Shown here piece after piece: positions 27,615 to 45,555 of a stretch of 64,000 nt of DNA (positions within the stretch are counted from its first letter, which is position 1; every line of letters begins with the position of its first letter). The notes beneath the pieces were generated by a model that was given only the letters and a program-made list of their open reading frames with translations, was not told the origin of the DNA and made no database searches. Source of the DNA: a virus; the IMG/VR virus record IMGVR_UViG_3300027759_000085, positions 1-64,000 of that record; one strand, given 5' to 3'. A program made the translations under genes and the position numbers.

Positions 27615-28387
27615 TGAGTAGAATTGGACTTAAACAAATTATTGCTGAACTTATAGACAGCAAGGATTCTAGCTCACATGAGTTTAGAAGAATGTATAAT
27701 ATAGGTGTAAGAGGTGTTCGTGAATTTAACACTGACATTGTAGGAAACTTCTCTACTAAACTATTAGATGTTAATGCTAATAAAACAGCAGACCTTCCAG
27801 AAGATTATGTATCCTATTCTAAAATGGGAGTTATTAATGAAAAGGGAGAGATTGTTACACTTAGATCTAATCCTCAATTAAGTAATTATAATATTGGACA
27901 CTCACTTAACCCTGATAGATTCGAAGGAGTCCCAGGTATTGGAGCTGTATCATATCCTGCTATACCATATAACTATCCATATATATACTATAACTTTTTT
28001 GTATCTAACCAGTCTTTCAATTTATTTGGTCTTGCTGGTGGTGGACAAGATATAGGTCAATACAAAGTAGATGAGGAGTGTGGAATAATTATCTTTGGTC
28101 CTTACTTTAAGTACGAAAAGATTTTACTTGAATATCTTGGTGATGGAATGGATAGAGATTGTGATGACTATATGATAGACAGTCGTGCCGCTGAAGCTAT
28201 GTTAGCTTACATCAGATGGAAGACAGCCCTTGATAACCCTAAGAAGTATGGACAAGGGATTATGAGGGATTACAAGCAAGAATATAAGTCTGAGAGACTA
28301 AAGGCTAAGATGCGTATAAATAAAATTGTTGTGTCTGAATTTGAAGATATACAAAGAATTACCAATAAATTAGCACCAAGATCATAA
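27614..28387 (+). CDS. head-tail adaptor / ring protein 3
   Basis: 257 aa. N-terminal helical IGLKQIIAELIDSKDSS, then a segment DLPEDYVSYSKMGVINEKGE, a pattern of gp4/gp11-like adaptors. Overlaps the following tail gene by one base. Together with the two preceding genes it forms the likely connector set. Confidence 0.65.
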   Translation: MSRIGLKQIIAELIDSKDSSSHEFRRMYNIGVRGVREFNTDIVGNFSTKLLDVNANKTADLPEDYVSYSKMGVINEKGEIVTLRSNPQLSNYNIGHSLNPDRFEGVPGIGAVSYPAIPYNYPYIYYNFFVSNQSFNLFGLAGGGQDIGQYKVDEECGIIIFGPYFKYEKILLEYLGDGMDRDCDDYMIDSRAAEAMLAYIRWKTALDNPKKYGQGIMRDYKQEYKSERLKAKMRINKIVVSEFEDIQRITNKLAPRS

Positions 28388-31300
28388 TGATAGAAAGTAA
28401 AGTATTCGCAGGTGGAGGTCTTAATCAAGATGTTGATAATAACTTTTTAAAACCTAATGATTGGAAGGATGCTTTAAATATTAGGGTTACTGATAGACTT
28501 AACAATACAGATAATATTATTTCTAATATAAAAGGAAATACATCTGTAAGTTATGCTCTCCCTGCAGGAACTAATAAATGTATTGGTGAGTACGCTAATG
28601 AAAAGGCTGGAAAATTTTATTCATTTATATGGAACAGTAATAATGATCACTCTATAACCGAATACGATCCTACATTAAATACGATAACAAAAGTCCTGCA
28701 GGCTAGTTATCTTAATTTTCAGGAGTACCAATTAATTAATGGAATAGGAATAGTTGATGATAATCTATTGTACTGGACCGATGGGTTTAATCCTCCTCGT
28801 GGTATAATGATAGATAGGGCCAAGGAAACTAGTCCTCCATATTATACTAATTCAGTAAGTATATCGTTAGCTAAACCACCACCATCTGTATTAGTTACTC
28901 CATCTTATGCAAATGATCCAAATTACCCAGCTACACCTGTAGCAGTAAACAGATTAAAGGGTCAACTATTTCAATTTAGATATATATATATTTATGAGGA
29001 TGGATCTAGAAGTGCATGGAGTTCATGTAGTACGGTTCCATATCCAACACTAGAGGTTAATAGTACCGTATCTAGTGAGGCATTTAGAAATAATAATATA
29101 GTTTTAAATTTTGATGTAGGTACAAAATATGTTAAATCAATAGAAGTAGCTGCACTAGTTAAAGGTATTGCATCAACTGGTACTACCCAAGATTGGTTTG
29201 TGATTTTAGCTAAAAGTAGAGCTGCTTTAATTGCTGATACAGGATCATATAATTCATTAACAAATGCTTATGAGTATAGATTCTTTAATGATGGTTTATA
29301 TCAATCTGCTGATGTTGTAGAAACTGATTTACCTTATGATTATGTACCATTAACATCTAAGTGTTTAGATATAATAAATGGAAATGTTCTTATATTAGCA
29401 AATAATAAAGAAGGATATGATAACATAACTACAGATGTAACTTTAGGTGTAACATATGTTGCTCCTGATATTGGGGCAAGAATGACTGTTTATCATCCAT
29501 TAGTAACAACTAATTATTTTTTTTCTGGTGTTCCCGTAACTGGAGATGTAATTAATTATGATCTTGATTATTGGGAAGGAGGAGCAGGTCCACCAGATCC
29601 ACCAACTGGTAATATAACTGGTACATATACTGTTACTGGATTGCAATCTGGAAATTTAAATTTAACTGTAAATGGTTTAAGTAGTCAAATTGCATTTGAT
29701 ACTGGCATGGATGTAATAGGTACAGTAACTGTACAGCCAAATGGTTCAATTTTATTAAGTTTTGCTTCATCTCCTGAAGAAGTTGTTTTTGGTGATGAAT
29801 TCTCTATGACAGTAACATTGGCAGCCTCATCATTAACAGCATCTTTGTCAACCTATAAAACAAATTCAAGATACCAATTTGGATTAGTTTATTATGATGA
29901 TTTTAATAGAAGTACATATGTACAAACTTCTGATAATTTTATAGTTTCAACAGATTCATTTGGCGAGGTAGAAGGAGATAATCCAGTAATATCTTGGCAA
30001 ATAGATCATGCAGCTCCATCATGGGCAACTACATATCAATGGGTTAGAACAGAGCAACTTACACATAGTAAATTTTTATTTTGGTTGGCTACAGCAATAG
30101 CTGCTCCAGCAGGTAAAAATTATTATGAACTTAATATTAGTTCGTTAATTACATATAGTGCAACAAACCCTGACAGTATATTAAACTATGAATATACTCC
30201 TGGTGATAGATGTACTATACATAAGATTGGAGCTACATGGCAATCTTCATTTGATGTAGCCATTGTTGGTGAAGAAGTTACCTCTTCGGTACATAAGATT
30301 TGGATAGAAAAAGGTATTTCGCTCACACCAGGTACAACAGACGTTCTTATTGAAATATATACTCCTAAGACAAGGTCTAATCAACCTACCGAACAATTCT
30401 TTTATGAATTTGGTGAAGTATATAGCTGTACTTCTGGAACACACACAGTACTTACTGGAGATTTTACACTAGGCGATGTATTTTATAGAGGAAGATTATT
30501 TTCTGCTGGAGTTACAACGAATGTAGAAGATCCAAACTTTAGTGATTTTTATATTAGTAGCTTTAGCTCCAATGGTAGGGCTAATATATTCTCACCACAA
30601 GCCAAACAGCTCACTCTGCCGACAGATGTAAGGTTCAGTGATACCTATGTACCAAATACAAATATAAATGGCTTGAGCAGGTTCTATGGAGACGCATTTG
30701 AGACATACGACAGGGTAAACGGATCTATACAGAAAACAACTGTAAGGGATAACTACTTAATATTATTCCAAGAGTTAAAGATAGGTTATGTTCCAATAAT
30801 GCAAAGCATACTTGAGGACCAAGGTTCTGGTAATGCAGCTAACGTAGCAATCTCAAATAAACTATTAAACAAGGTTAGATACTTTGCTGGAGACTTTGGT
30901 ATTGGTTTAGTTCCAGAATCTATGGCCAGGTTTGCTGGTGTTATATACTTTGTAGATTCTAACAGAGGTCAGGTAGTTAAGTTATCTGATGGTTTACAAC
31001 CTATAAGTACTGCTGGTATGGATAGTTATTTCACAAGTAAATTAACATCTATCAAAAGCTCACCTAATGTAAAAGTTATAGGATCATATGATCCATATAA
31101 CGATGAGTATATAGTAAGCTTTAAGATAGCTACTGCATCAAACGCTGGAGATGCTACTTTAGCATTTAGTGAAATGATAAACAGGTGGACATCATTCTAT
31201 TCATTCATACCTGATTCTGGTGGTTATATATTTAATCAATACATAACACATAAAGCTGGGGTATTATACACACATAACAACAATAGTTCTTATGGTACGT

Positions 31301-31650
31301 TTTATGGTACCAACACTGAATCTTATGTTGATATTGTATTTAACAATTCACCAACTCTAATTAAAACATTCTTAGGGTTCATAGAGCAATCAAATACAAA
31401 ATGGACTCCAACTGTTATCTCAACAAGCAATGCTCAAGCATCTTCATTAAATGATACTGATTTATTTGAAAAGGAAGATGTATTCTTTGCTAGTTTCTTA
31501 AGGGACTCAAACTCACCTAATGGATTAATAAATGGAGATGATCTAAAGGGTAACTGGATTAGGTTAAAGCTTACTGAAAGCAATGTAACTAAGTCTACAT
31601 TATTCTCTGTAGATTTAAGATCTATACCATCTTATCAAGGTATAAAATAA
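28387..31650 (+). CDS. large tail (nozzle/muzzle-type) protein
   Basis: 1087 aa, beta-rich. Begins MIESKVFAGGGLNQDVDNNFLKPNDWKD; this opening (a glycine-rich turn, then DxDxxxxxLxPxxyxdAlNir) is typical of tail nozzle/stabilisation proteins in short-tailed phages. Repeated immunoglobulin-like or beta-propeller-like segments follow. Probably forms the tail tube end through which DNA leaves. No catalytic motif. Confidence 0.7.
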   Translation: MIESKVFAGGGLNQDVDNNFLKPNDWKDALNIRVTDRLNNTDNIISNIKGNTSVSYALPAGTNKCIGEYANEKAGKFYSFIWNSNNDHSITEYDPTLNTITKVLQASYLNFQEYQLINGIGIVDDNLLYWTDGFNPPRGIMIDRAKETSPPYYTNSVSISLAKPPPSVLVTPSYANDPNYPATPVAVNRLKGQLFQFRYIYIYEDGSRSAWSSCSTVPYPTLEVNSTVSSEAFRNNNIVLNFDVGTKYVKSIEVAALVKGIASTGTTQDWFVILAKSRAALIADTGSYNSLTNAYEYRFFNDGLYQSADVVETDLPYDYVPLTSKCLDIINGNVLILANNKEGYDNITTDVTLGVTYVAPDIGARMTVYHPLVTTNYFFSGVPVTGDVINYDLDYWEGGAGPPDPPTGNITGTYTVTGLQSGNLNLTVNGLSSQIAFDTGMDVIGTVTVQPNGSILLSFASSPEEVVFGDEFSMTVTLAASSLTASLSTYKTNSRYQFGLVYYDDFNRSTYVQTSDNFIVSTDSFGEVEGDNPVISWQIDHAAPSWATTYQWVRTEQLTHSKFLFWLATAIAAPAGKNYYELNISSLITYSATNPDSILNYEYTPGDRCTIHKIGATWQSSFDVAIVGEEVTSSVHKIWIEKGISLTPGTTDVLIEIYTPKTRSNQPTEQFFYEFGEVYSCTSGTHTVLTGDFTLGDVFYRGRLFSAGVTTNVEDPNFSDFYISSFSSNGRANIFSPQAKQLTLPTDVRFSDTYVPNTNINGLSRFYGDAFETYDRVNGSIQKTTVRDNYLILFQELKIGYVPIMQSILEDQGSGNAANVAISNKLLNKVRYFAGDFGIGLVPESMARFAGVIYFVDSNRGQVVKLSDGLQPISTAGMDSYFTSKLTSIKSSPNVKVIGSYDPYNDEYIVSFKIATASNAGDATLAFSEMINRWTSFYSFIPDSGGYIFNQYITHKAGVLYTHNNNSSYGTFYGTNTESYVDIVFNNSPTLIKTFLGFIEQSNTKWTPTVISTSNAQASSLNDTDLFEKEDVFFASFLRDSNSPNGLINGDDLKGNWIRLKLTESNVTKSTLFSVDLRSIPSYQGIK

Positions 31651-31697: not shown

Positions 31698-32321
31698 ATG
31701 GCAGGAGGATTTCCACTTGGCTCATTTGCTAAATCTTTAGGCTCGGTAGCATCTGCTGGAGCTAGTGCTACTCCATTGGGTATGGGTATAGCAGCAGGAG
31801 CTGGACTATTAAAGGCAGGCTTAGGTTTTCTTCAGCAAGCCAAGGGTAAGAAAATGCTTAAGAATACTGTTGATCCAGGTTATGTTATACCTAAAGGTTA
31901 CGAACAGAATTTAGGTCAGGCTGAACAAATGGCCAAGGGTGGTATACCATCTCAGGAGTATAACCTAGCTAGTACAAATATACAAAGAGGCACACAAGCA
32001 GGATTGCGTCAACTTAGTAGAATGTCTAATCCTTTTGCAGCTATATCTGGATTGGCAAGAAGTCAATCTGATTCATTTTCTAAACTAGACGCATCTAATG
32101 CATCAGCCAAGAGACAAAATATCTTACAGGCTATGGGTGCAAGACGTGAGATGGCAGGACAGCAGTTAGCTCAACAGCAATACTCTCAAAATAGATACTT
32201 TGATAAAGTAAATGAGGCTAATGCTAGAATTGGTGCAGGCACTCAGAATATGTTTGGTGGATTAGGTGACATAGGAACTGCTGGGATATATGGGTCAATG
32301 GGTGGTAAAAAGAATGCTTAA
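31698..32321 (+). CDS. internal virion-type protein
   Basis: 207 aa. Gly/Ala-rich hydrophobic N-terminal 45 residues (LGMGIAAGAGLLKAG), then Gln/Asn-rich helical part and Gly-rich tail. Composition resembles ejected internal virion proteins that enter the host envelope. First of four such genes. Confidence 0.6.
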   Translation: MAGGFPLGSFAKSLGSVASAGASATPLGMGIAAGAGLLKAGLGFLQQAKGKKMLKNTVDPGYVIPKGYEQNLGQAEQMAKGGIPSQEYNLASTNIQRGTQAGLRQLSRMSNPFAAISGLARSQSDSFSKLDASNASAKRQNILQAMGARREMAGQQLAQQQYSQNRYFDKVNEANARIGAGTQNMFGGLGDIGTAGIYGSMGGKKNA

Positions 32322-32362: not shown

Positions 32363-33721
32363 ATGGCAATTAAAACAGGAATAGGTGTAGGTGCAGCTCA
32401 AGTATTTGATACTAGCGGTATTATGAATGCTTATGGTAGACAGATAGCTCAACAACAGAGAGCAGAAGCAGCTCAAGCACAGAGAGAATATCTTAGTGCA
32501 GAAAAAGAAAAAGAAAGAGCAGAAAGAGAAGCAGCTAGATTTGATGAAAATATAGCAGATATAATGGCTAGTGCTAAAACTTCTGGTGCTAGAGATGTTG
32601 ACGTTCCAGATATTACTAAGTCATATAATGATATAAAAGACTTCTATTCAAAGTCTGGTTCATTAAAAGATTCCGATAAGCCATTGTTTAGAGCAGAGCT
32701 AAGAAATAGAATTAACTCACTTAATGAGTATGCTCAGCGTTCAGAAAAACTGTCTAAGGATGCATTGGCTATATCTTCAGAGATTGCTAGAAATGAGTGG
32801 GATTATGATCCTGCATCAGTAGCAGATATAAACGACATATTAAAAACTCCATTAAGTAAACTTGGAGATAGAGCAAACTTAGATCCTCAGAGGTATAAAA
32901 GGCTACCTAACTTTGGATTGATAGATACTATTATAGACTCTACATACGAAAAAGGTAATGAGAACGCTAAGTTTGCTGGAGAGGTATTTGATAAGGGTAA
33001 AAGATTTAATGTAAAAAGAATTGAGCCAGCTTTTATTCAGAATAATTTAGTACAGCGTTTCACAAGCTCACCAGAAGCATTAAAAGCTATTAGTAGTCTA
33101 TATGTAAGAGAACTTGGTAAACAACCAACAAACGAAGAACTTATCAATTATATAATGGATAAGTATAAGACCAAGCACAAGTTTGATTATATTGGTGAAG
33201 CAAGGGACCTTAAGGAACCAAAGAGTGGAACTGACGAACAAGATAAATACACTTATAGACAACAGATAATTACTGGAGCACTTGAAAATGATCCAGGTTC
33301 TATAAATAAAATAAAGGCTGCATTGCCTCCAGGAAGTAAAATTATTCCATATAAGTCACTTAGCACAGGCAAATCAAAAGGTGGTTATAATTCATTAAAA
33401 ATAACTATACCAGGAGGTGAGGTGGACTCTAAAGGTAATCCTATATTACCATTAGAACAAATAATTGAATCGTCTAGAGGAGAGGGTGTTATTAAACTAA
33501 ACAGAATATTAAATACCTATACTGGAGAAAACATATCTGATAGTAAATTAGGTATTAAAGGTGGAAAGCCTGCTGGTCAGCAAATAGAAGTTAATATACC
33601 TAAACCAAATGCGTCTACTCCTAGTATACCTACTGCTACAAGAGCTGAATGGAAATCGGCTGGATGGAGTGATTCAGAGATTAATGAAGGAATTAAACAA
33701 AAAGTTATAAAAGTTAAATAA
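32363..33721 (+). CDS. internal virion-type protein
   Basis: 452 aa. Gln/Ala/Glu/Arg-rich helical N-terminus (AQQQRAEAAQ, EKERAEREAARF), then mixed domain, and a C-terminal SNRP-rich linker before a short helical tail. Probably an ejection protein; stop overlaps the start of the 1814-aa gene by one base. Confidence 0.6.
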   Translation: MAIKTGIGVGAAQVFDTSGIMNAYGRQIAQQQRAEAAQAQREYLSAEKEKERAEREAARFDENIADIMASAKTSGARDVDVPDITKSYNDIKDFYSKSGSLKDSDKPLFRAELRNRINSLNEYAQRSEKLSKDALAISSEIARNEWDYDPASVADINDILKTPLSKLGDRANLDPQRYKRLPNFGLIDTIIDSTYEKGNENAKFAGEVFDKGKRFNVKRIEPAFIQNNLVQRFTSSPEALKAISSLYVRELGKQPTNEELINYIMDKYKTKHKFDYIGEARDLKEPKSGTDEQDKYTYRQQIITGALENDPGSINKIKAALPPGSKIIPYKSLSTGKSKGGYNSLKITIPGGEVDSKGNPILPLEQIIESSRGEGVIKLNRILNTYTGENISDSKLGIKGGKPAGQQIEVNIPKPNASTPSIPTATRAEWKSAGWSDSEINEGIKQKVIKVK

Positions 33722-36700
33722 TGGCTGATTTACCAAAACCAAGTGATTTATTGAAAAAAGGATTGCCTAAACCACAAGACTTATTGGAAAAAAAAAATCC
33801 TATTCAGAACGGTTCTGGTATTGGTACGCAGACTTCATTCTCTGGCTCAAAGCCTTTCCAAACCCAAGTAGATACTAAAATACCCTCTGTATTAACAGAG
33901 CAAGGTAAGGTAGGTTATGAGCAAGAAATTCAGAAAAAAGCTCAACAAAAACAAAAACTTTCAGAACAATTAAAGAGTGCAAAAGATGTTTATTATCAAG
34001 CTCAAGGAGATGCATCGTCATTTTCTTTGTATGATGGATATCAGTCTTCTATAAAAAATATAGATGATGAGATTTCTAAAAACTATCCAGATGAAGCTAC
34101 CGTTTCACGAACAGTTTCTGGTCAAGAAAGTTTTCAAAAATATAAAGCCAAAAGAGATCAACTTATTTCTGATAGAGAAATATTGAGTCAAGAGTCAAAA
34201 AATGCATTAAGATATATAAATCCAAAAATTGAATCTGATATAAATTTAGATTTTGAAAAAAATGGGTTAGATAAATTCACAAGAGATGTAGATGGTTTTA
34301 AAGTTGCCGATGAATATAAAATAGATGATTATGCTAAACAATACGCAGAAAAATCTGGTTTATCTGATGATGGTACATTTAAAAAACTTGTTTATGATAA
34401 ATTAAAATCATCTGTTTCATTTAAAATAAGTGAACCTGAAATTAAAAAAGAGTTTGACAAATTATACAAAAGTAAAACTGGAGTAACTCCAGATGAAGCT
34501 ATTGAAAAAGATTTTTTAAATAATTTTATTGAAGGTAAAAAAATACAATCTAATTTAATTCTTCAAGTTGAATCATTAAACAAAGAAATAAAAACAAAGA
34601 TTAATGATTCAGCCAAGTCCTTATCGATTGAGTATAAGCCAATACTTGAATCTATTAATACTAATTATAAAGTTGAAACAGATGAAATAAAATCTAAAAT
34701 TGAACAACTTAATCAATCTTATAAATCAGGCCTTATTTCAAGACAAGATTATGAATTAGCATTTACTAACACTAAAGCTCAGTTTGATTTAGCAGATGAA
34801 CAATATAGACAACTATTTGACGCTGAATCAAAAAAGTATCTTAATAATCAGAATGAGCTATTTTCTAAATACAACAAAAGATTTAATAGACAAGTTTCTG
34901 AATTTAAAAGCATGGCAGATCAACAACTGTCTGATGCATCAAGTAAATACGGTAAGTCGTATAAAATGTCACCAGAGGTAAAGAACCAATATGAATCTCT
35001 TTGGGGTCAAGCTACTAAAAACTATCTATCAAAAGAAGAGGCTGTTAAATATGAATTAGACAGGTCTTCTTTAATGGGTAATATCGGTGGACAATTTGCT
35101 AAAAATCTGTTTATGGGTATTGGTGGTGGTATTAAAAGTATATCGTCAATGTATGATTTTGATGCTGGATATGTTTTGGGAGATTATTTGGAAAACTCAT
35201 TTACTTCATCAAGCCCAGAAATAAAATCTGGATGGGATTTACTTGATCCTATTAAACTACAAACATCTACGGGTAAAATGATTGGTGGTATGGCTCCAAT
35301 ATTAGGAGCTTCAGCTTTAACAGCTGCTGCAACAAAAAGTGCACCTACTGCTTTGAGATTATTAACTACTGGTCTTGGTAACTATCTTATAGAGACTGCT
35401 CAGATTGGTGGTGGAGTTAAGGATCAAGTTTTTCAAAATACTGGAAACATTGCAGATGCCAATAAAGCTGCTAAAAAAGTTATGGATGCAAACTTGTATT
35501 TGCTACCACTATACGCTTTAGATGGGTTACCATTTCTTGGTAATGTTACATTGGGTATTGGTAATACTTTTGCTAGGGCTGGAGCTAAGGCTGCTCTAGA
35601 AGTAGTTACTGAACTCCCACAAGAATATTTTCAAGGAATATTTGAAGATTTAGCAGTTGCTGATAAACCTATATCGGACACATTTAAAACTATGACTCTT
35701 GATAAATTCGAGAACACAGCATTAAATGTTATACCCACATCAGTTTTATTGGGTGGTGGTGGGACAGCTATTCAGGGCGTTAGAGAAAATATTTCTAAAA
35801 TGCAAGGTCGTTCACTTGCTGCAAAAGTTGATTTATCTAACCTTACAGAAACCACTAAAAAACAATTTATTTATGATACGGTTTTAAGAAGGGGAGATGT
35901 TTTCTCTAAGGCATATGTTTCTTCTTTGTTTAACTCTGGCAATATAAATGAACAAGAGATGGAGTCGTTTAGTAAAATGATTGACGACTCGGCTAATATA
36001 ATGACAGAATCTAAAAAAATTGGATTAAATAAAGCTCAATCAAAAGTTTATGCTGCATTAAGATTTGATTATTTACAATCTAAAAATGAATTTGATTCAG
36101 AGCAGGATGAAGTATCAAAGAAAGTATATAAAGCCAAAATGGATTCAGCAGAAAAGTCTCTAAATACTTATCTTTCTGGTGGCAAACCAGATGCGGTTCT
36201 TTTGACACTACCAAATAATGAGCAATACATATATAGTTTTGAAACACTAAATTCAATTATTAATGAGGGTGGTGAAATATTAAATCAAATTATAAGTGGA
36301 GAAGTTTCTATAGGTTTACTTTCTGATAAATCAAACCCGAAAGCAAAAGAATTATCCGATAAATTAACTAAATTAAAACAAGATGCCGTTCAAGTCAAAA
36401 CAGCAGGTCAAGTTCCTGTACAGCCAGAAGCCACAATTGGCGAAGAAGTGGAGCAAGGAAAACCCAAATCAGAAGCTGAAGTCGTTACCGAAGAAGGTGT
36501 CAAGGCAGAAGAAGTAGGTAGTAATGTAGGGGAAGATTTGAAAATAACAGGAGATGTAGGTATTGATAAATCAAACATTCCTCTTGATAAAACAAGTCAG
36601 CCAGTTAATTTAGGGTCAATATTAGCAACAAATGGTGATAAATTAGATATATCCGCAGAAGAAATAAATTTAAGTTATCCTGGTAAAAAGAAATACGTTA

Positions 36701-39165
36701 GGAAAATAACAGCGACCAAAGGAGATGAAAAGGCAATAATATCATTTTGGGAGAATAATAATAAATTAATAATACTTCACGTAGAAAGCACTAAAAAAGG
36801 TGCTGGATACGGAACAGATTTAATTAATAAAGTTATTAAAGAGGCAAAAGACGCTGGAATAGAAGAGATAGTAGCAGATAACGTAGAAAGTCTTTCATCA
36901 GAAAAATATTGGGAGAAGCAAGGATTTATTCAAGACCCTAATTCCCGTAGTAATAGAATTTTACCGTTATCTACTGCTCAAGAACAAACCCCTGGAAAAC
37001 AAGTAGAACAACTAAGAGCAGAAGAACAAGCTGAACTAAAAGCCGCAATACCTAACGCAGAACAATACCTAACAGATGGTAAGGTTGATAAGGCTAAACT
37101 AACTGATACTAAAGATAAAAAAGCCTTTAAGAAAATCTACGATAAGTACGATAAGCTCATTACTCCTTTGTTGCCTAAGAAAGAAGCTAAAGTAGAAGAG
37201 GCAGCAACCTATAGTGGAGTAAATAAATTATTTAAATCTAATTTTGAACTTTCTAATATAGGAACACCTGAACAATACTCTAAATATTTAGGCACTATAT
37301 TCCCCGAAAGTAAAGTAAAAGGCATTGTTTATCATGGAAGTAAGACTAAAAAACCTACTCAGATTTTTGTAGAAACTTTTATTGGTAAAAACAATAAAAT
37401 ACTTGGTGCAGGAAATGGATTCTATTTCACTTCTGATATTAATTATAGCAAGGTTTATGGAGAAACTACTTTAAGTATAATTGATATTAAAAATCCAATT
37501 GATTTTAATTCAGATAATTATGATTCATTAGAAGACTTAAAAAAAGCTGCTAGAGAATTATCTAATAAAGGAGATGGAGTAATTGATTCAAGAGAAAATA
37601 ACTATTATCCACAAGGCGAAGAAAAACTTAAATTATCATCAAGTCCTGATTATATTGTTTTTAAACCAAGTCAAATACATATATTAGGAAGTAACCAAGA
37701 TATAGAAGGGTTTAAAAATTTTGTTAGTAAAAAAGAAGCCAAAGCTGATGCTGTTATAACACCAGACAATTCTTCTAATTATGCAAATATGACAGAGGAT
37801 GATAAAGGCAACTTTGTTTTTTTCCATGTGGGTAAAAAAGGATATAAAAAAATAAAAAAATCATCTGGTGCAACTACGGCTACATCTAAAGAAGAAGCTT
37901 CTGCATTATCTAAGGTTGGTGGAGTTGCTATGTATTATACATCTCCTTCTGACTCTGAAACAATGGTTACTGGAGAGGGTAAGTATGCAGTTGCTGTACC
38001 AAAAGAAAAAGTATATGACTTTAATACAGATAAATTAAATTTTATTGAAGAAGCTAAGGCTAGACATGAATCTGAAAATCCAGGAAAGGCATTTGATTTA
38101 AATTCTCAGCTCGCCTATGTAACTAAGATAGCAGGTGAGAATGGTTTTGACATGGTTGTTGCTCAATGGGATGGAAAAACAAGAGCTCAAACAACAAAAG
38201 AATTTATACCATCAGATATTCAAGAATCAGAAGGTAATGTTGTTAAGAAGAAATTCACCGAGGATTACGAATCTAATAAGAAAAAAGGATTTGAACCAGT
38301 AATACCAGTTTCAAAATCTAAAAAACTAGCTGATCTTTATAATAAGATTAATGAGATAAGGAATAAAGAAAAAAAGTATGATGATCTATATAGTTTATAC
38401 GCAGATAGCAGTAAATTACAACAAGAAGACATAACAAAACTTATAGAAGAATCTAATCTTCCACAAGAGATCAAGGATGAGTATAAAGATATTATTGAGT
38501 CTAAAGAGGAATCTAGGAGATCAAAAAATATAGCAGGTAAAAAGGTAAAGGTTAAAAATGCTCCAGAAGGCAATCATTTAAATATAGGCCTAAATGAAGG
38601 TAGAACAAAGAAAAAAATGTCAATTGATGACGTTTTATCTAAATTACCTAAAGATGTAAAAGTTATTTCTTATTCAGAAATTGATGTAGCTAGCGGTGAG
38701 CCAACTCTTGTTATAGAAACAGATAGACCACTTACTGCATTAGAAATAATCAAGTTGCTTGATGATACTAAACAACAGGCTATACCTCAATTATCTAACG
38801 GAGAAGGTGTTTTATATGACACTGAAAGAGGTACTGAAAATGGTTGGGGTGAATTTGATCCAAATCTTTTTATTTTACAAGATGGTAAAAGTTTAAGCCA
38901 ATACACAAAAACTAAAGTTCCTAAACTAAACGAATCAAATGTAGAAAATGCGATTGAGTTACTAGATGATATTAGGGATAACAAAAGAAAAGCTGAACGT
39001 GCAAGTAGTAGAAAAAAAGCTGATCTTGAACAGAAAATAACAGAAGCTGAAACTGAATTAGATAAAATACCAGATGAAACTAAAATAGTTAGGGTTATTA
39101 ATGATAACTTTGATAAGATTAAAAAAGACTTAAAAGAACAAGGACTACTAAACGTAAAATGTTAA
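33721..39165 (+). CDS. 1814-aa polyvalent virion protein with GNAT and two ADP-ribosyltransferase-like domains
   Basis: Order: Lys/Pro-rich N-terminus (PKPSDLLKKGLPKPQ); long charged coiled-coil region to about residue 440; Gly/Ala-rich hydrophobic part (about 460-680) suited to membrane insertion; Glu/Lys linkers; a GNAT-like acetyltransferase domain (about 965-1085: GAGYGTDLINKVIKEA, EKYWEKQGF); a first ART-like domain (about 1195-1335: VYHGSK, GNGFYFTSD, IKNPIDF, FKPSQIHIL) as in ART-PolyVal families; a second (about 1360-1500: FFHVGKKG, MYYTSP, TKEFIPSD). Such polyvalent proteins are injected with DNA to modify host targets. Domain calls are from motifs. Confidence 0.75.
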   Translation: MADLPKPSDLLKKGLPKPQDLLEKKNPIQNGSGIGTQTSFSGSKPFQTQVDTKIPSVLTEQGKVGYEQEIQKKAQQKQKLSEQLKSAKDVYYQAQGDASSFSLYDGYQSSIKNIDDEISKNYPDEATVSRTVSGQESFQKYKAKRDQLISDREILSQESKNALRYINPKIESDINLDFEKNGLDKFTRDVDGFKVADEYKIDDYAKQYAEKSGLSDDGTFKKLVYDKLKSSVSFKISEPEIKKEFDKLYKSKTGVTPDEAIEKDFLNNFIEGKKIQSNLILQVESLNKEIKTKINDSAKSLSIEYKPILESINTNYKVETDEIKSKIEQLNQSYKSGLISRQDYELAFTNTKAQFDLADEQYRQLFDAESKKYLNNQNELFSKYNKRFNRQVSEFKSMADQQLSDASSKYGKSYKMSPEVKNQYESLWGQATKNYLSKEEAVKYELDRSSLMGNIGGQFAKNLFMGIGGGIKSISSMYDFDAGYVLGDYLENSFTSSSPEIKSGWDLLDPIKLQTSTGKMIGGMAPILGASALTAAATKSAPTALRLLTTGLGNYLIETAQIGGGVKDQVFQNTGNIADANKAAKKVMDANLYLLPLYALDGLPFLGNVTLGIGNTFARAGAKAALEVVTELPQEYFQGIFEDLAVADKPISDTFKTMTLDKFENTALNVIPTSVLLGGGGTAIQGVRENISKMQGRSLAAKVDLSNLTETTKKQFIYDTVLRRGDVFSKAYVSSLFNSGNINEQEMESFSKMIDDSANIMTESKKIGLNKAQSKVYAALRFDYLQSKNEFDSEQDEVSKKVYKAKMDSAEKSLNTYLSGGKPDAVLLTLPNNEQYIYSFETLNSIINEGGEILNQIISGEVSIGLLSDKSNPKAKELSDKLTKLKQDAVQVKTAGQVPVQPEATIGEEVEQGKPKSEAEVVTEEGVKAEEVGSNVGEDLKITGDVGIDKSNIPLDKTSQPVNLGSILATNGDKLDISAEEINLSYPGKKKYVRKITATKGDEKAIISFWENNNKLIILHVESTKKGAGYGTDLINKVIKEAKDAGIEEIVADNVESLSSEKYWEKQGFIQDPNSRSNRILPLSTAQEQTPGKQVEQLRAEEQAELKAAIPNAEQYLTDGKVDKAKLTDTKDKKAFKKIYDKYDKLITPLLPKKEAKVEEAATYSGVNKLFKSNFELSNIGTPEQYSKYLGTIFPESKVKGIVYHGSKTKKPTQIFVETFIGKNNKILGAGNGFYFTSDINYSKVYGETTLSIIDIKNPIDFNSDNYDSLEDLKKAARELSNKGDGVIDSRENNYYPQGEEKLKLSSSPDYIVFKPSQIHILGSNQDIEGFKNFVSKKEAKADAVITPDNSSNYANMTEDDKGNFVFFHVGKKGYKKIKKSSGATTATSKEEASALSKVGGVAMYYTSPSDSETMVTGEGKYAVAVPKEKVYDFNTDKLNFIEEAKARHESENPGKAFDLNSQLAYVTKIAGENGFDMVVAQWDGKTRAQTTKEFIPSDIQESEGNVVKKKFTEDYESNKKKGFEPVIPVSKSKKLADLYNKINEIRNKEKKYDDLYSLYADSSKLQQEDITKLIEESNLPQEIKDEYKDIIESKEESRRSKNIAGKKVKVKNAPEGNHLNIGLNEGRTKKKMSIDDVLSKLPKDVKVISYSEIDVASGEPTLVIETDRPLTALEIIKLLDDTKQQAIPQLSNGEGVLYDTERGTENGWGEFDPNLFILQDGKSLSQYTKTKVPKLNESNVENAIELLDDIRDNKRKAERASSRKKADLEQKITEAETELDKIPDETKIVRVINDNFDKIKKDLKEQGLLNVKC

Positions 39166-39168
39166 ACC

Positions 39169-39663
39169 ATGAAACAAAAAATATTATCTGAAAAGATAGA
39201 ATCTAAACTAAATGAATTAATAGGTCAAGAACTATATGCTATGTATGCGTATAAGGCTATTGCTAACTGGTGTCAAGATGCTGGGTTCTTAAGAGCACAT
39301 CCATTCTTTATTGAGGAAAGCTCAGATGAGAAACTACACGCTGAAATATTGGAGCAGTATATATTAGATATGGGAGGAGTTCCTGACCTAAAAAATATAG
39401 ATAAGCCAGAGGAGTCATTTAAGAGCCTTACAGACGTAGTTTATGCTTCGTATGATATGGAGGTAGCATTAGGAGAGAAGTACGCTGAGTTCGCCTTAGA
39501 ATGCGTTACAGAAGATGCTATTACTTTGACTAAGATACAAGAGTTTATCAAGATACAGACTGAATCTATCGGATTTTATGGCGATATTTGTTCTGCAGCA
39601 AAAGGATTGTCTACAAGCAAGTTTGAGCAGTTAATGTTAGAGAAGATTTTAGTTAAAGGATAA
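39169..39663 (+). CDS. ferritin (non-haem, FtnA-like)
   Basis: 164 aa four-helix-bundle iron storage protein. The di-iron ferroxidase ligands can be placed: Glu21, Glu54 and His57 (in DEKLHAE), Glu98 and Gln130, with Glu132 close by, so it should oxidise Fe(II) and store it as mineral in a 24-mer. No haem-binding Met pattern of bacterioferritin. It lies three bases after the polyvalent ejection protein and ten before another large one, in the same strand and operon, so it is expressed late with virion proteins. Whether it is packaged, protects virions from oxidative damage, or buffers host iron at lysis is unknown. Confidence 0.9.
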   Translation: MKQKILSEKIESKLNELIGQELYAMYAYKAIANWCQDAGFLRAHPFFIEESSDEKLHAEILEQYILDMGGVPDLKNIDKPEESFKSLTDVVYASYDMEVALGEKYAEFALECVTEDAITLTKIQEFIKIQTESIGFYGDICSAAKGLSTSKFEQLMLEKILVKG

Positions 39664-39672
39664 TAATTAATT

Positions 39673-42600
39673 ATGAGTAACTGTAAGTTTACATTAAGAG
39701 ATGAAAATGGTAATATTATCGTTGATGGTGTTAGCGAGCAAGAGTTTAAAAAGTATTTAGCTTTAAATGCTTCTACTGCTCAAAAGTTACTTGGTGAATC
39801 TCGCATCATTGGTGAAGCAATAGAGCCAGAAGTTTTTTCTGAGTTTGAAGATGTTTCAGATGAGGATGCAATGGCTATGCTTAAGAATAGCATAGAAACT
39901 CCATTTAGAAATAAAGAAAAGCTAGAAAAGACTTCAAAGAGTATATTCTCAAGATTCATGACAGCTCTTGTTGACTCTCAATATAATGTAATAGATAAGT
40001 TATTAAAAGATTTTGGTTACGTTGGTAAAATAGCTGTAGCTGCATTAAAAAACAGAAAAGGATATACTGGCATATCTTCATTAAGAAGTAGGTTATTCAA
40101 TAAAGAAATATTTGATGACTTAGGGGTATTCCCCAATGTAGATATTGATGGAGTAAAAGTTTCTGAAAAGGATCTGTTTGATGTGTTTCTAAATCTTAAT
40201 CGTATAATAAAAATCGATGAAAGAATTAGGGACAAGTTTTATAATTTTATGTCATTGCGTGACAAGTTAAAAAACGATGATAGTTTGACAGATGATCAAA
40301 AGATTGAAATTAAAAATGAAATAGATAATCTTAGGGATTATTTAGTAAAGAGGGATGCTATAGATGTAAAGAATGGTGAATACGTTCAGAAACAATATAG
40401 GCATACTGGCAATAAAACAGCTGCTACTGCTAGAGCTGAATTAAGGTCAATTAAAAAATCAACCCCTGAATTATACAAGAAATTTGAAAAGAAGGGCCAG
40501 TCTTATTATGATGCATACAAGGCATTGTTATATGATCAGTATAAAAACAATATGATTAGCAAGAGTGTTTATGATGAACTTATTGCATATGATTATATAC
40601 CAACAAGATACATTCAGCATATTATTGAAAGTGAACTTGCTGAATCTGGCTCTAAAGCTGCATCTAAACTATCTACATCTATAAAGAACTTAACTGGTGG
40701 TAGTGATGCCGATGTTATGACTAACTTTCAGGCTATACTTGAGATATATACTAATCATACATATAAACAAATATTTGAAAATACATCGGCATTATCTCTT
40801 GCAAAAGCTATTATAAAAAAACCAGTAACTAAATCAGAATCAAAAGAATTAATTAAAGCATCTGATGCTAAATTAAACCCAGCTGGAGTTCAAAATATTA
40901 ATCTTGAAATGTATGTTGATGAACCAACTGGATTTGATAAGTTTGGTAATCCAACATATGGAGATATACCTGTAGGTATGGATGTTATTTACTTCTATAG
41001 GGATAATGGTAAGAAGGAAAGAATTGTAGCACCAAAGGATTTTGTAGATATATATTATGATCGTAACGGTTTAACATCACCAAAGGGTGAAGATATACTT
41101 AATAGGACTAGTAAGTGGACAGGTATTAATATATTTAAATCTTTAATAACAAAAAATAATCCTGCGTTTGGTATTTACCAGTTAACCATGGATGCTCCAC
41201 AAGCTATAATAGCAACTAATGCTTATCCAGATTTCTTTTTAGGAAGTTTCATGTTAGCAAGTGATTATGCATCTGTATCAAAAGACATTGTTGACTTTAT
41301 TCGTGCAGATAAGTTAAGTCCATTATTTAAGGAAGCTATTAATGCAGGTATATTCTCTGACTTTATATCTACAGAAACTGATTTACTTAAATTCTCTCCA
41401 TTAACAAATATTAAAGGTGAAACAAATTTTTTAACTACTGTTAAATTTTTAAAATACAAATCTGGTAAAGCTGCTCAAACAGCATTAGATGGTATAGCTA
41501 AATTAAATGAAGGTATAGAATATGCAACTAGATTAGCTGTATATAAGCGAGTTAAAGAAAATACAACTAAACAATTTTTAAAAGAAAATAATGGTAAGCC
41601 ACTTAGCTCAGAACAAGAGTTTGAGGTTAGAATGCTAGCTGCTGAGCAAGCTAGAAATGTAGTTGACTTTTCAAGATCTGGAACACTTGGTAAACCATTA
41701 AATAAACTGTTTGCATATTTAAACGCTGGTATTCAAGCATTTTATTCATCATCAAGATCATTAAAGGATAACCCTACCAAGGCTGCTGTTCTTTTAGGTG
41801 AGATTGGTTTGGGTACTACGATGTTATTAGCTTATTCTCTTGGAGATTTCGGTGGTGATGATGAGGAAAAGAAGAAAAGATTAGATGAATATATGTCACT
41901 TCCTGATTACCAAAGATCAAACTACTTTAATATATACAATCCTTTTAGTGAAGAAGGATCTTCTTATAGATTTATAAGATTATATAAACCACAATTATTT
42001 AGAGGTTTTTTAAATATGGTGGAGCAAGGTTATCTTAAGATGGCTAAGAAGCAAGATATCGATCAGTCTCAAATAGTTGGAGCATTTATGAATGATTTAC
42101 CAGTAGACCCATCTGGATTAAATATATTAACCAGGAATCCATTAGTAAATGGTATGATTAAATACAATTGGAACTATGATGCATTCAGAAAACAATATGT
42201 AGTAAGGAATGAGGAGAAGATAGAAAACTGGGCAGAATATGATAAGAATACTGGTGATATATATAAAAAGGCAGGTAAACTTACAGAAGGTATTTTTGGT
42301 ACCGAGGGTATATCTCCTAAGAGAGCTCAGGCACTTGTTGAATCTCTTATTGGAGACCCAAGTAAAAACACTACTACTGCTCTACTTGATAAAGCTGGTC
42401 GTGTAATGTACTATGGTGTAACTGCCAATTCAGAAGGTCTTAATAAAGAACTACCAGCACCTGGTGAAGAAGCAGATTGGTTATTTAAACTATCTGGATT
42501 AAAGGGTAGAATATTTACTAAAACACCAGAAATAGATTACGAGTTTGCAGATAAACTTAAAAAAGAAGAAAGAAAGCAGTATACTCAAAACAAGTTTATT

Positions 42601-42960
42601 AAAGAACAAGTTGATCAGATATTTGCTGAAAGTAAAGATAAAAAAGAAGCATTGCTTACCTCGACAATCATGTTAGATGAGTTAATTAAGAATGGTGATA
42701 TAACTAGAGATGACAAGAATAGAATACTTAAGATACAACAAAAGAGAGATTTTATAAAGGATAAGCCTAGGTTCTATGGTGACTTATTATATTCTAGCTC
42801 AAATGATTCTAAGGTTACTATATTAGATTACGAGACTGAGTCATTAGATGATAAAAAGTTTAATGATATATTATATGATCTAAGATTAAATAACATAATC
42901 AGTAAGGATGTATTATTCAAGGTTCAATCAAATAGATATGCAAGAGCAAAAAAGAAATAA
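39673..42960 (+). CDS. 1095-aa LPD38-like polyvalent/ejection protein
   Basis: Large helical protein. The segment NPAFGIYQLTMDAPQAII at about residue 495 and the later EQARNVVDFSRSGTLGKPLNKLFAYLNAGIQAFYSS at about 660-695 fit the LPD38 domain of large polyvalent proteins. A hydrophobic stretch near 710-722 (LGTTMLLAYSL) could insert in a membrane. Probably ejected with the DNA. C-terminus very basic. Confidence 0.65.
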   Translation: MSNCKFTLRDENGNIIVDGVSEQEFKKYLALNASTAQKLLGESRIIGEAIEPEVFSEFEDVSDEDAMAMLKNSIETPFRNKEKLEKTSKSIFSRFMTALVDSQYNVIDKLLKDFGYVGKIAVAALKNRKGYTGISSLRSRLFNKEIFDDLGVFPNVDIDGVKVSEKDLFDVFLNLNRIIKIDERIRDKFYNFMSLRDKLKNDDSLTDDQKIEIKNEIDNLRDYLVKRDAIDVKNGEYVQKQYRHTGNKTAATARAELRSIKKSTPELYKKFEKKGQSYYDAYKALLYDQYKNNMISKSVYDELIAYDYIPTRYIQHIIESELAESGSKAASKLSTSIKNLTGGSDADVMTNFQAILEIYTNHTYKQIFENTSALSLAKAIIKKPVTKSESKELIKASDAKLNPAGVQNINLEMYVDEPTGFDKFGNPTYGDIPVGMDVIYFYRDNGKKERIVAPKDFVDIYYDRNGLTSPKGEDILNRTSKWTGINIFKSLITKNNPAFGIYQLTMDAPQAIIATNAYPDFFLGSFMLASDYASVSKDIVDFIRADKLSPLFKEAINAGIFSDFISTETDLLKFSPLTNIKGETNFLTTVKFLKYKSGKAAQTALDGIAKLNEGIEYATRLAVYKRVKENTTKQFLKENNGKPLSSEQEFEVRMLAAEQARNVVDFSRSGTLGKPLNKLFAYLNAGIQAFYSSSRSLKDNPTKAAVLLGEIGLGTTMLLAYSLGDFGGDDEEKKKRLDEYMSLPDYQRSNYFNIYNPFSEEGSSYRFIRLYKPQLFRGFLNMVEQGYLKMAKKQDIDQSQIVGAFMNDLPVDPSGLNILTRNPLVNGMIKYNWNYDAFRKQYVVRNEEKIENWAEYDKNTGDIYKKAGKLTEGIFGTEGISPKRAQALVESLIGDPSKNTTTALLDKAGRVMYYGVTANSEGLNKELPAPGEEADWLFKLSGLKGRIFTKTPEIDYEFADKLKKEERKQYTQNKFIKEQVDQIFAESKDKKEALLTSTIMLDELIKNGDITRDDKNRILKIQQKRDFIKDKPRFYGDLLYSSSNDSKVTILDYETESLDDKKFNDILYDLRLNNIISKDVLFKVQSNRYARAKKK

Positions 42961-43839: not shown

Positions 43840-45555
43840 ATGTTAACTCCACAGGAACTATTATATAGAATTCAAAATGGTGAGCAATTCTTTGCTTTAC
43901 TAATGGATGAATATGTCGATGAGACAGAGGAGTTAGAACCAGTAGATAGTGAATTAAAGCAAAGGATAAACTGTATATTTCTAATTCTAGAGGCTATAAG
44001 CTTCCTATACTATAGAGGTATCTATACTAACGATCCTGTATGCATGGCCTTGTACAAGAGGTTAATGAACTGCTTAGGTATATTTGCTGGATCTCCACTA
44101 TTTATACTAGACCCATCTATAATATTTCCTGGTATTATACTACCTCCTATATTCCAAGGACCTCAGGGATTACAAGGTCCTCAAGGGCCACAAGGTCCAC
44201 GAGGCTTTCAAGGATTTCAAGGTGTTCAAGGATTTCAAGGTGTACAGGGTGCAGTTGGACCACAGGGTACTCAAGGAACACAAGGCTTCCAAGGCTTTCA
44301 AGGAGTACAAGGTTTCCAGGGTTTAACGGGTCCACAAGGCTTCCAGGGTGTACAGGGTACACAAGGGCCAAGGGGTTTCCAAGGTTTTCAAGGAACACAG
44401 GGTGCTCAGGGAGTACAAGGAAATAATGGAACAAGTGTTGTCTTAAAAGGTTCGGTAGCTACTGTAGGTAATTTACCATCGGTAGGTAATACTGTTGGTG
44501 ATCTATATATTGTACTGGCTAGTGGTGATGGATATGTTTGGGATGGAAGTGCATGGAATAATGTAGGACCTATTGTGGGTCCACAGGGTGCTCAAGGGAC
44601 TCAAGGATTTACTGGTACACAGGGTGTTCAAGGATCTACGGGTCCCCAAGGTATTACTGGTGCCCAGGGATTCCAAGGTGTACAAGGTACACAAGGACCT
44701 ATAGGGACTCAAGGTTTTCAAGGTACTCAAGGACCTACGGGTCCACAAGGCTCTACGGGTGCACAGGGAGTGCAAGGATTCCAAGGTCCTACTGGTCCAC
44801 AAGGTCTTACTGGACCTCAAGGTTTTCAGGGATTTCAAGGATTTCAAGGAGCAACTGGTAGTCAAGGCTTTCAGGGTCCTACGGGACCTCAAGGTGCTAC
44901 AGGTGCTCAGGGGCCAACAGGACCTCAAGGTGCTACGGGTCCTCAAGGTCTTACTGGCCCACAAGGACCAGGTGGACCTCAGGGATTTACAGGACCACAG
45001 GGACCAAATGGACCCCAAGGACCTCAGGGTTTTACTGGACCTCAAGGACCTACTGGACCGCAAGGGTTTACAGGTCCTCAAGGAGCTCAGGGTGTACAAG
45101 GACCTACAGGATTTATTGGTAGTTTAACTACATCTGGATCATCAGGTGCAGCTACATTAGTTGGCTCAACCTTAAATGTACCAATATATAGTGATGCTCT
45201 TGGTGGTTATCTACCATTGAGTGGTGGAACATTGACTGGTGCTCTAGGAGGTACATCTGCTTCATTTAGTAGTAGTGTGACTGCATCAGCATTCTTTGAA
45301 AGTTCTTCTATTAGAGGTAAAAACATTATAGCTACTAATCCATTACTTTCACTTAACATTGATGTAATAAAATACACTCGTAAAACTGATGTAAATAAGG
45401 ATATAAGATATGGTTATTCTGCTGAGCAGATACATTCATTAATGCCTGAACTAACAGACAGGGATGTAACCTCAGTTAAGTATTTAGATGTACACACCAT
45501 ATTGATTGCTCAGTTACAGCAAGAGATAAGGGAATTAAAAGATAGGTTAAAATAA
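43840..45555 (+). CDS. collagen-like tail fibre 1 with C-terminal intramolecular chaperone
   Basis: 571 aa. Residues 1-100: globular anchor with LMDEYVDE and YKRL..CL. Residues about 106-196 and 246-424: Gly-X-Y repeats dominated by GPQ, GFQ, GVQ and GTQ, forming a collagen-like triple helix, interrupted by a small beta domain ([17 protein letters not shown]). Then a short beta stretch and an S74-type chaperone remnant beginning SSIRGKNI near 489 with C-terminal trimeric coiled coil. Binds the host surface. Shares its anchor with fibre 2. Confidence 0.9.

Follow-up and report, generated by a model that had tools for sequence, protein, structure and literature searches.

A 1814-aa protein encoded in the viral record IMGVR_UViG_3300027759_000085 (IMG/VR) probably belongs to the cargo of a crassvirus-like phage as a polyvalent protein, injected into the host and carrying a set of enzyme domains in its C-terminal half, in which one ADP-ribosyltransferase (ART)-fold module (ART2) is conserved, and a GNAT-like domain and another ART module (ART1) are additions of the lineage. 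The window, i.e., the whole stretch of DNA analyzed, comprises 64,000 nucleotides (positions 1 to 64,000) of this 65,451-base record. The initial annotation, made from the letters of the sequence, had proposed an acetyltransferase-like and two ART-like domains for one protein at 33721-39165, and the open reading frame (ORF) was borne out as single and uninterrupted, with a first base that is the last base of the preceding gene's stop codon. The protein and its conserved module lie as follows:

33721..39165, forward strand: polyvalent, probable cargo protein (1814-aa ORF; open frame, start overlapping the previous stop)
37789..38220, forward strand: ART2 module, residues 1357-1500 (invariant residues, model, fold searches)
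37825-37827, forward strand: H1369 of ART2, invariant
37936-37938, forward strand: Y1406 of ART2, invariant
38188-38190, forward strand: Q1490 of ART2, invariant

Judged by its relatives, ART2 is the conserved core of the protein. Residues 1340-1600 form the widespread part, which was found at 9, 12, and then, with an alignment search, 43 loci in viral contigs, and the same alignment returned no relatives from 84,980 bacterial and archaeal genomes. A crassvirus muzzle gene was present in 31 of the 38 ART2 records including the window (E ≤ 0.001; 30 over the cut-off) and in 0/14 control genomes. The relatives with complete ORFs are mostly giant (about 2,100-3,700 aa), and the ART2-bearing protein (gp21) of Elemovirus phages of Flavobacterium (host strain Flavobacterium sp. 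BAL314) has been deposited as a 'structural protein' (a database label). Across 35 hand-picked rows from ART2 loci (alignment A2; near-duplicates and the truncated L020 left out), H1369, Y1406, R1488, A1489, and Q1490 were invariant (35/35), and the ratio of non-synonymous to synonymous substitution rates (dN/dS) was 0.03-0.16 in 11 close pairs and 0.14 between the window and the sister virus L012, indicating purifying selection.

The model of residues 1336-1814, built from the ART2 alignment, had a mean predicted local distance difference test (pLDDT) score of 88.2, with H1369 in model strand 30-36, Y1406 in 67-71, and Q1490 in 151-156; by our own reading of the listed elements, these are the first, second, and fifth main strands, and a catalytic-type H and an aromatic residue hence occupy strands 1 and 2. 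The best solved structure via Foldseek was 6kyf (probability 0.93, E 0.037). In a second-look fold table, 6kyf (Z 6.7, 3.7 Å, 119 aligned) and the toxin MbcT (Z 5.9) were the sole rows on ART2 among the matches listed, the absence of a family from this table not being counted as evidence. The fragment 1347-1510 gave no Pfam family at E ≤ 10 and no PHROG or NCBIfam match, PADLOC returned chance-level matches only, and by profile ART2 does not belong to ART-PolyVal (PF18760). Given the fold, the invariant residues, and the lack of any library match, we consider ART2 a probable enzyme of ART fold, from a family that seems specific to phages, with a predicted H-Y-Q site; this is the best reading of the module, and a Z score below 8 leaves room for error. 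The second ART module proposed initially (residues 1355-1505) was supported by an ART-like model fold (pLDDT 88) and by its invariant H and Y, and not in its assignment to ART-PolyVal, for which no profile match was found.

The structure 6KYF belongs to AcrIF11, which counters CRISPR by ADP-ribosylating a Cas subunit and has the key residues H-F-H-D (PMC12421852). Both AcrIF11 and ART2 are phage-encoded, and AcrIF11 is the nearest solved fold of ART2; however, the former is a small free protein, whereas ART2 carries H-Y-Q, with Q replacing D, inside a giant protein. No sequence homology between the two was found, and AcrIF11 was not among the matches of an ART2 profile search of PDB sequences. 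Likewise, neither the GNAT-ART1-ART2 stretch nor the profiles of ART2 and ART1 found a relevant counterpart among the sequences of solved structures.

A different role for ART2 would be to bind or split nicotinamide adenine dinucleotide (NAD+) as a glycohydrolase or phosphorylase, depleting or sensing NAD+ rather than modifying a target. We regard this as unlikely, though it is the alternative that survives best: MbcT, an ART-fold NAD+ phosphorylase, is the second of the ART-fold rows, and the third catalytic residue is Q instead of D/E. Against it, the nearest solved fold, AcrIF11, is a transferase, and transferases without the acidic residue exist, as in several human mono-ARTs. A target-modifying ART2 remains our preferred reading.

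Upstream of ART2 lie the two modules that would be additions of the lineage, namely the GNAT-like domain and ART1:

36754..36927, forward strand: GNAT-like domain, C-terminal half, residues 1012-1069 (PF00583, 24.1 bits on a fragment, 23.7 bits in another scan)
37176..37192, forward strand: 17-nt direct repeat (15/17) beside the ART1 cassette, left copy
37216..37722, forward strand: ART1 cassette (ART-PolyVal), residues 1166-1334 (PF18760; fold; family)
37216..37329, forward strand: ART1 conserved N-terminal frame, residues 1166-1203 (mean pairwise identity 0.68 for 1170-1195)
37333..37335, forward strand: H1205, predicted catalytic, strand 1 (H in 55/61 non-redundant family members)
37336..37656, forward strand: ART1 variable catalytic core, residues 1206-1312 (family mean identity 0.20; 78% to locus L070)
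37423-37425, forward strand: Y1235 of the ART1 core (H-Y-D triad)
37648-37650, forward strand: D1310 of the ART1 core (H-Y-D triad)
37657..37722, forward strand: ART1 conserved C-terminal frame, residues 1313-1334 (mean pairwise identity 0.73 for 1321-1334)
37728..37744, forward strand: 17-nt direct repeat (15/17) beside the ART1 cassette, right copy

ART1 matched PF18760 at 32.2 bits on the fragment 1184-1346 (cut-off 31.2) and at 31.0 bits in the genome search, or 32.5 bits with neighbours. The model of residues 956-1342 had a pLDDT of 75, high at the ART1 borders and low in the GNAT part. The residues H1205, Y1235, and D1310 match the corresponding columns of the family alignment, and this model places them in predicted strands 248-252, 279-282, and 355-358; the order H, Y, and D in strands 1, 2, and 5, respectively, is that of the H-Y-D ARTs in PMC5512222. 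PARP or tankyrase catalytic domains made up all 50 listed rows of the second-look fold table for the ART1 model, the best match among those listed having a Z of 8.1 (2.8 Å, 108 aligned), and the Foldseek top match was PARP2 (E 1.2e-3). On the strength of its model, ART1 is an ART-fold module with a PARP-like predicted fold and an H-Y-D triad. The 17-nt direct repeat at its edges may be a product of chance, since similar repeats lie nearby.

For the GNAT-like domain, the fragment 960-1090 matched PF00583 at 24.1 bits (cut-off 20.7), covering profile positions 58-116 only. The acetyl-CoA loop motif of GNAT enzymes has the consensus Q/R-x-x-G-x-G/A, where the domain reads K-G-A-G-Y-G. Among the ART2-bearing frames, a GNAT match above the cut-off was seen in the window only, with a sub-cut-off match in one other frame.

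The two ART modules do not appear to be copies of one family, because a comparison of their profiles gave a probability of 0.7% and their histories differ (a mobile cassette in one case, a conserved core in the other); a common origin of the two within the protein was thus considered and left unsupported. An ORF containing both ART2 and ART-PolyVal occurs in 5/38 records, the window and four others, the common frame in these four being judged from equal frame lengths (for L067, from a frame longer than the locus). The homologue in the sister virus L012 (1207 aa) aligns with residues 1086-1171 and 1340-1814 and lacks both GNAT and ART1, and its N-terminal part has no significant similarity to the 1814-aa protein. 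As far as this alignment tells, GNAT and ART1 are lineage-specific additions. The whole ART1 cassette is, on the same kind of evidence, common to L070 and absent from the sister virus.

Several observations weigh against the enzyme set as we describe it. The Pfam margin of ART1 is 1 bit, and the module is unlisted at E ≤ 1 in the whole-protein scan, in which PF00583 also falls to 18.9 bits, below the 20.7 cut-off. The GNAT match spans half of the PF00583 profile, no relatives of the GNAT region were found in viral contigs, and the GNAT part of the 956-1342 model is weak (pLDDT about 50-76). ART2, for its part, resembles no ART by sequence and lacks an acidic third catalytic residue (Q1490 is invariant, and the nearby E1494 is not conserved), and its best fold matches have the E of 0.037 and the Z of 6.7, below 8, given above. 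Finally, the search patterns lay at the cassette borders, which favors loci with conserved borders in the ART1 family. Given that the whole-protein scan yields 18.9 bits for one and nothing for the other, the GNAT and ART-PolyVal matches are best described as real but thin. For the proposals made initially, the GNAT claim accordingly holds over a fragment and the C-terminal half of the profile and fails on the whole protein, and the first ART module (residues 1190-1340) is likewise upheld by the fragment score and missing from the whole-protein scan; structure searches favor both ART modules through PARP2 and 6kyf, while the GNAT counterpart, AcrVA5 (row 5, E 0.013, with the 956-1342 model), comes from a model that is weak in this region. 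AcrVA5 is a GNAT anti-CRISPR.

Such weak GNAT and ART1 family scores would also suit enzyme-like domains that are inactive remnants or binding modules in a protein serving for packing and ejection only, as would the varied triad of the ART1 family (H in 55/61 members; Y in 31/61 and F in 19/61; D or E in 25/61). This, too, seems improbable to us, marginally more so than an NAD+-directed ART2, given that H, Y, and Q of ART2 are invariant in all rows under purifying selection, and that the ART1 of the window keeps H-Y-D with a dN/dS of 0.24 to L070. Several protein-modifying activities in one probable virion protein are the best reading of these data.

The ART1 family combines a conserved frame with a variable catalytic core. 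Of 81 cassette sequences, 61 were kept (13 incomplete and 7 near-duplicates dropped), and their mean pairwise identity, with the search patterns excluded, was that noted above for the N-terminal frame, the C-terminal frame, and the core (0.68, 0.73, and 0.20, respectively). Across the 1830 pairs, identity in the N-terminal frame was uncorrelated with that in the core (Spearman -0.006; 0.15 for the C-terminal frame). Ten pairs had cores at least 60% identical (core mean 0.83), and their N-terminal frames (0.65) were no closer than those of random pairs. The N-terminal frame was less alike than the core in 8/10 of these similar-core pairs vs. 6/1820 others, and the C-terminal frame in 7/10 vs. 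0/1820. At the DNA level, identity between L094 and L114 rises from 47-62% to 100% within the N-terminal frame and returns to 38% past the C-terminal frame; L073/L108 and L086/L112 showed a similar, less sharp shape. In L116/L121, as in the 1814-aa protein and L070, the whole cassette is common and the flanks are unrelated. The L089/L146 pair shows the opposite pattern, with 77% identity across 1651 aa outside the cassette and 27% in the core.

Divergence by itself would not be expected to make frame and core independent; we interpret these patterns as an exchange of cores between frames, and the comparisons establish a family in which the frame is conserved and the catalytic core varies, the cores apparently moving by recombination. 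The similar-core pairs are few, and assembly chimeras are possible, chiefly in the 100% case of L094/L114. Fast, arms-race divergence of the cores without swapping is a distinctly improbable account: the average core identity of 20-25% is of the kind seen in fast-evolving effectors, but the frames that fall below their cores, the DNA breaks at the cassette edge, and the L089/L146 pair all speak against it, as does a dN/dS of 0.21-0.42 in four near cassette pairs, i.e., no excess of amino acid change.

The ART1 alignment search found 119 relatives in viral contigs, and the counts that follow rest on the best 80 of these 119 loci. The core used alone found no relatives in viral contigs, and three different members used as queries found no cassette relatives in 50,697 phage records. 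A crassvirus muzzle was present in 33 of the 50 cassette-bearing records examined (50 of the 80 loci). With position classes that are partly uncertain owing to contig and locus ends, 13/80 cassettes lie in ORFs of ≤400 aa, 27/80 lie ≤350 aa from the end of the ORF, 30/80 lie ≤400 aa from its start, and 10/80 are internal. Three stand-alone cassettes (L108, L121, and L132) sit between two giant genes. A strict GxDFDxDK-type motif shared the ORF with the cassette in 17/80 (expected 0, 20 shuffles), and the motif regions of L073 and L024 led by tblastn to crassvirus proteins, a number of which bear annotations as RNA polymerase or RNA polymerase catalytic subunit; this relationship in the giant cassette relatives went unseen by PDB sequence search and PHROGs. 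On this evidence, some ART1-family cassettes sit in crassvirus RNA polymerase polypeptides.

Ahead of their ART cassettes, two giant crassvirus-type ORFs carry a YbiA/NADAR-like domain (L073, residues 2303-2446) and a DprA-like domain (L092, residues 2332-2517), respectively. The cassette profile further matched 18 loci (L156-L173) in bacterial and archaeal assemblies, mostly metagenome-assembled, with labels including Nomurabacteria, Nanoarchaeota, and Nitrososphaeraceae, among others, and often with short ORFs (several of about 200-260 aa). Some of these loci may be misbinned phage contigs (e.g., one with a 3400-aa open frame).

The gene for the 1814-aa protein is the third after the muzzle gene, following two probable cargo genes, and is itself followed by a ferritin-like gene and a gene of the LPD38 polyvalent type:

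28387..31650, forward strand: crassvirus muzzle protein (PF25731 at 78.4 bits, cut-off 27)
31698..32321, forward strand: 207-aa protein, probable cargo (position; 69% to L012)
32363..33721, forward strand: 452-aa protein, probable cargo (position; 40% to L012)
39169..39663, forward strand: ferritin-like protein (PF00210 at 79 bits, cut-off 24.5; 80% to L012)
39673..42960, forward strand: LPD38 polyvalent-type protein, 1095 aa (PF18857 at 40 bits, cut-off 27)

The large terminase (TerL), portal, and head structural protein of the window were matched by PHROG families, and the sister virus L012 (61 kb contig) has the same gene order at 40-80% identity. Going by its muzzle protein, the source phage is crassvirus-like, and gene order places the 1814-aa gene in the cargo-protein block. 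In crAss001, the cargo proteins gp45-gp50 were detected in virions by mass spectrometry (PMC10172136, accessible text), and the 1814-aa gene occupies the corresponding place after the muzzle gene; the accessible crAss001 text makes no mention of ART or GNAT ('ADP-ribos' and 'polyvalent', 0 occurrences). A scan of 27 window ORFs for the RNA polymerase DxDxD pattern gave two matches only, both judged unrelated; Epsilon crassviruses are described as having no virion RNA polymerase block in the accessible part of PMC7886860.

We propose that the protein would be synthesized late, kept in the virion, and ejected with the DNA through the muzzle tail, the last step being suggested by gene position and the analogy to crAss001 cargo. 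In the host, its C-terminal half may then act as an enzyme set, comprising a GNAT-like acyltransferase, a PARP-like H-Y-D ART1, and an H-Y-Q ART2, whose targets for modification in early infection could be host proteins or components of defence. The ART1 cassette would contribute a variable core, held by its conserved N- and C-terminal frame and apparently moving between frames by recombination. The initial suggestion that several activities are joined in one structural protein is thus partly supported, by the cargo-block position and the 'structural protein' label in Elemovirus, with the qualification that the two ARTs differ in family. That the protein is instead a toxin or exclusion factor aimed at competitors or superinfecting phages is quite unlikely, as the cargo-block position favors action at entry, even if similar H-Y-D ARTs are polymorphic toxins (PMC3482391, accessible text).

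In 2017, Iyer et al. described polyvalent proteins as large and multidomain, with carriage in the virion and injection predicted for them, and with ART as the commonest modifying domain; GNAT typically neighbors ART in the same polypeptide, and ART is fused to the phage RNA polymerase in N4-like phages (PMC5512222, accessible text). The 1814-aa protein likewise joins several effector domains in a single polypeptide encoded by a mobile element, and since injected ART/GNAT polypeptides, including GNAT beside ART, were already described there, it is a variant of a known polyvalent kind. The GNAT-ART pairs of that work, as far as its accessible text goes, belong to gammaproteobacterial (pro)phages, unlike the phage of the window ('crAss', 0 occurrences), and a second conserved ART-fold module and a frame-and-core cassette go beyond the polyvalent proteins described in it. 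ART1 resembles ART-PolyVal (PF18760)/Tox-ART-HYD2 in the order and strands of H, Y, and D and differs in belonging to a subfamily whose helical frame is long and conserved and whose core is variable.

The comparison with T4 Alt made in the initial annotation applies to the mode of action only. Alt, a probable head-packaged and injected ART, is an R-S-E enzyme (PMC5512222, accessible text), whereas ART1 is H-Y-D and ART2 H-Y-Q, and the families are unrelated. A closer parallel to the cassette is found in polymorphic toxin systems, in which the active module is exchanged within a retained carrier, stand-alone cassettes occur, and H-Y-D ARTs serve as toxins (PMC3482391, accessible text). However, polymorphic toxins swap C-terminal toxin domains together with immunity genes, whereas the ART1 family would swap the middle of one fold between conserved ends, and its cassette is internal, in phage cargo proteins. 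In the literature searched, mostly without subscription papers, we came across no account of swapped cores, of ARTs among crassvirus cargo proteins, or of the conserved H-Y-Q module.

More tentatively, and with some doubt on our part, environmental crassvirus-like phages may keep injected ART effectors diversified by recombination, with a frame in cargo or RNA polymerase polypeptides accepting interchangeable cores, here joined with an AcrIF11-like ART2 and GNAT as a counter-defence payload. If true, lineages could change the host target or the disabled defence without rebuilding the carrier. Should swapping be confirmed, this would constitute an evolvable, virion-carried effector system, polymorphic-toxin-like yet within one fold, and the variety of its cores would suggest that the host targets or defences vary as well. 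Crassviruses occur in great abundance, and the host role of their cargo proteins is largely unknown; ART2, at 43 viral loci, offers a single small, defined domain to assay.

The remaining segments of the 1814-aa protein are as follows:

33721..35040, forward strand: residues 1-440, charged region, possibly with a packing or ejection role (composition; weak apolipoprotein match)
35239..35838, forward strand: residues 507-706, hydrophobic block (200-aa grand average of hydropathy [GRAVY] 0.21)
36976..37233, forward strand: residues 1086-1171, segment common to the sister protein of L012 (51% identity over 107 columns)
38551..38880, forward strand: residues 1611-1720, ferredoxin-like C-terminal domain (model, fold search; phrog_11722, E 0.0039)
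38926..39138, forward strand: residues 1736-1806, C-terminal helices (model secondary structure)

For the coiled coil noted initially, the one signal is the apolipoprotein match (residues 287-410), which is very weak, at 17.1 bits vs. a cut-off of 90. A hydrophobic N-terminal part, noted initially, holds true as the block at residues 507-706, whose GRAVY was reached by 0/1000 shuffles, and not as a single strong membrane segment, none being found in the protein (the best 19-residue window was matched by 143/200 shuffles). No relatives of the N-terminal half were found in viral contigs. Residues 888-930 (window 36382-36510) are ~60% identical in L022 and L023, and similar stretches occur in other giant proteins, in the manner of a mobile linker.

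In fold searches, residues 1611-1720 resembled ACT domains (Z 7.5) and the phage S-adenosyl methionine (SAM) lyase 6znb (Z 7.4), and E1660, a candidate for the Glu that SAM lyases conserve ahead of the third strand, was invariant in 7/7 rows. A search with alignment A6 recovered 7 of the 38 ART2 records, the same seven as the A6 rows, and no new members. A SAM-lyase reading was set aside, remaining a lead: ACT domains score equally, and comparison with six SAM lyases gave no sequence signal, with no PF23780 match for the domain and its relatives and hhalign probabilities near 0.1% for both T3 SAMase and a profile of six SAM lyases. The Elemovirus protein gp67 (L150:17418-17759, minus strand, 113 aa) is possibly a stand-alone relative of this domain, from BFVD and weak phrog_11722 matches to both, with a probability of 0.8% by hhalign.

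The ferritin-like gene (39169-39663) lies inside the cargo block, its 80% identity preserved in the sister virus. In the phage elemoA_7-9A (Elemovirus), GroEL and GroES genes are annotated (L150:25450-27263 and 33133-33675). Elsewhere in the window, 43840-45555 encodes a collagen-like repeat protein (Pfam Collagen, 152 bits) and 46370-50248 another collagen-like protein, with G-x-x repeats recognized by eye; both are probably tail fibres.

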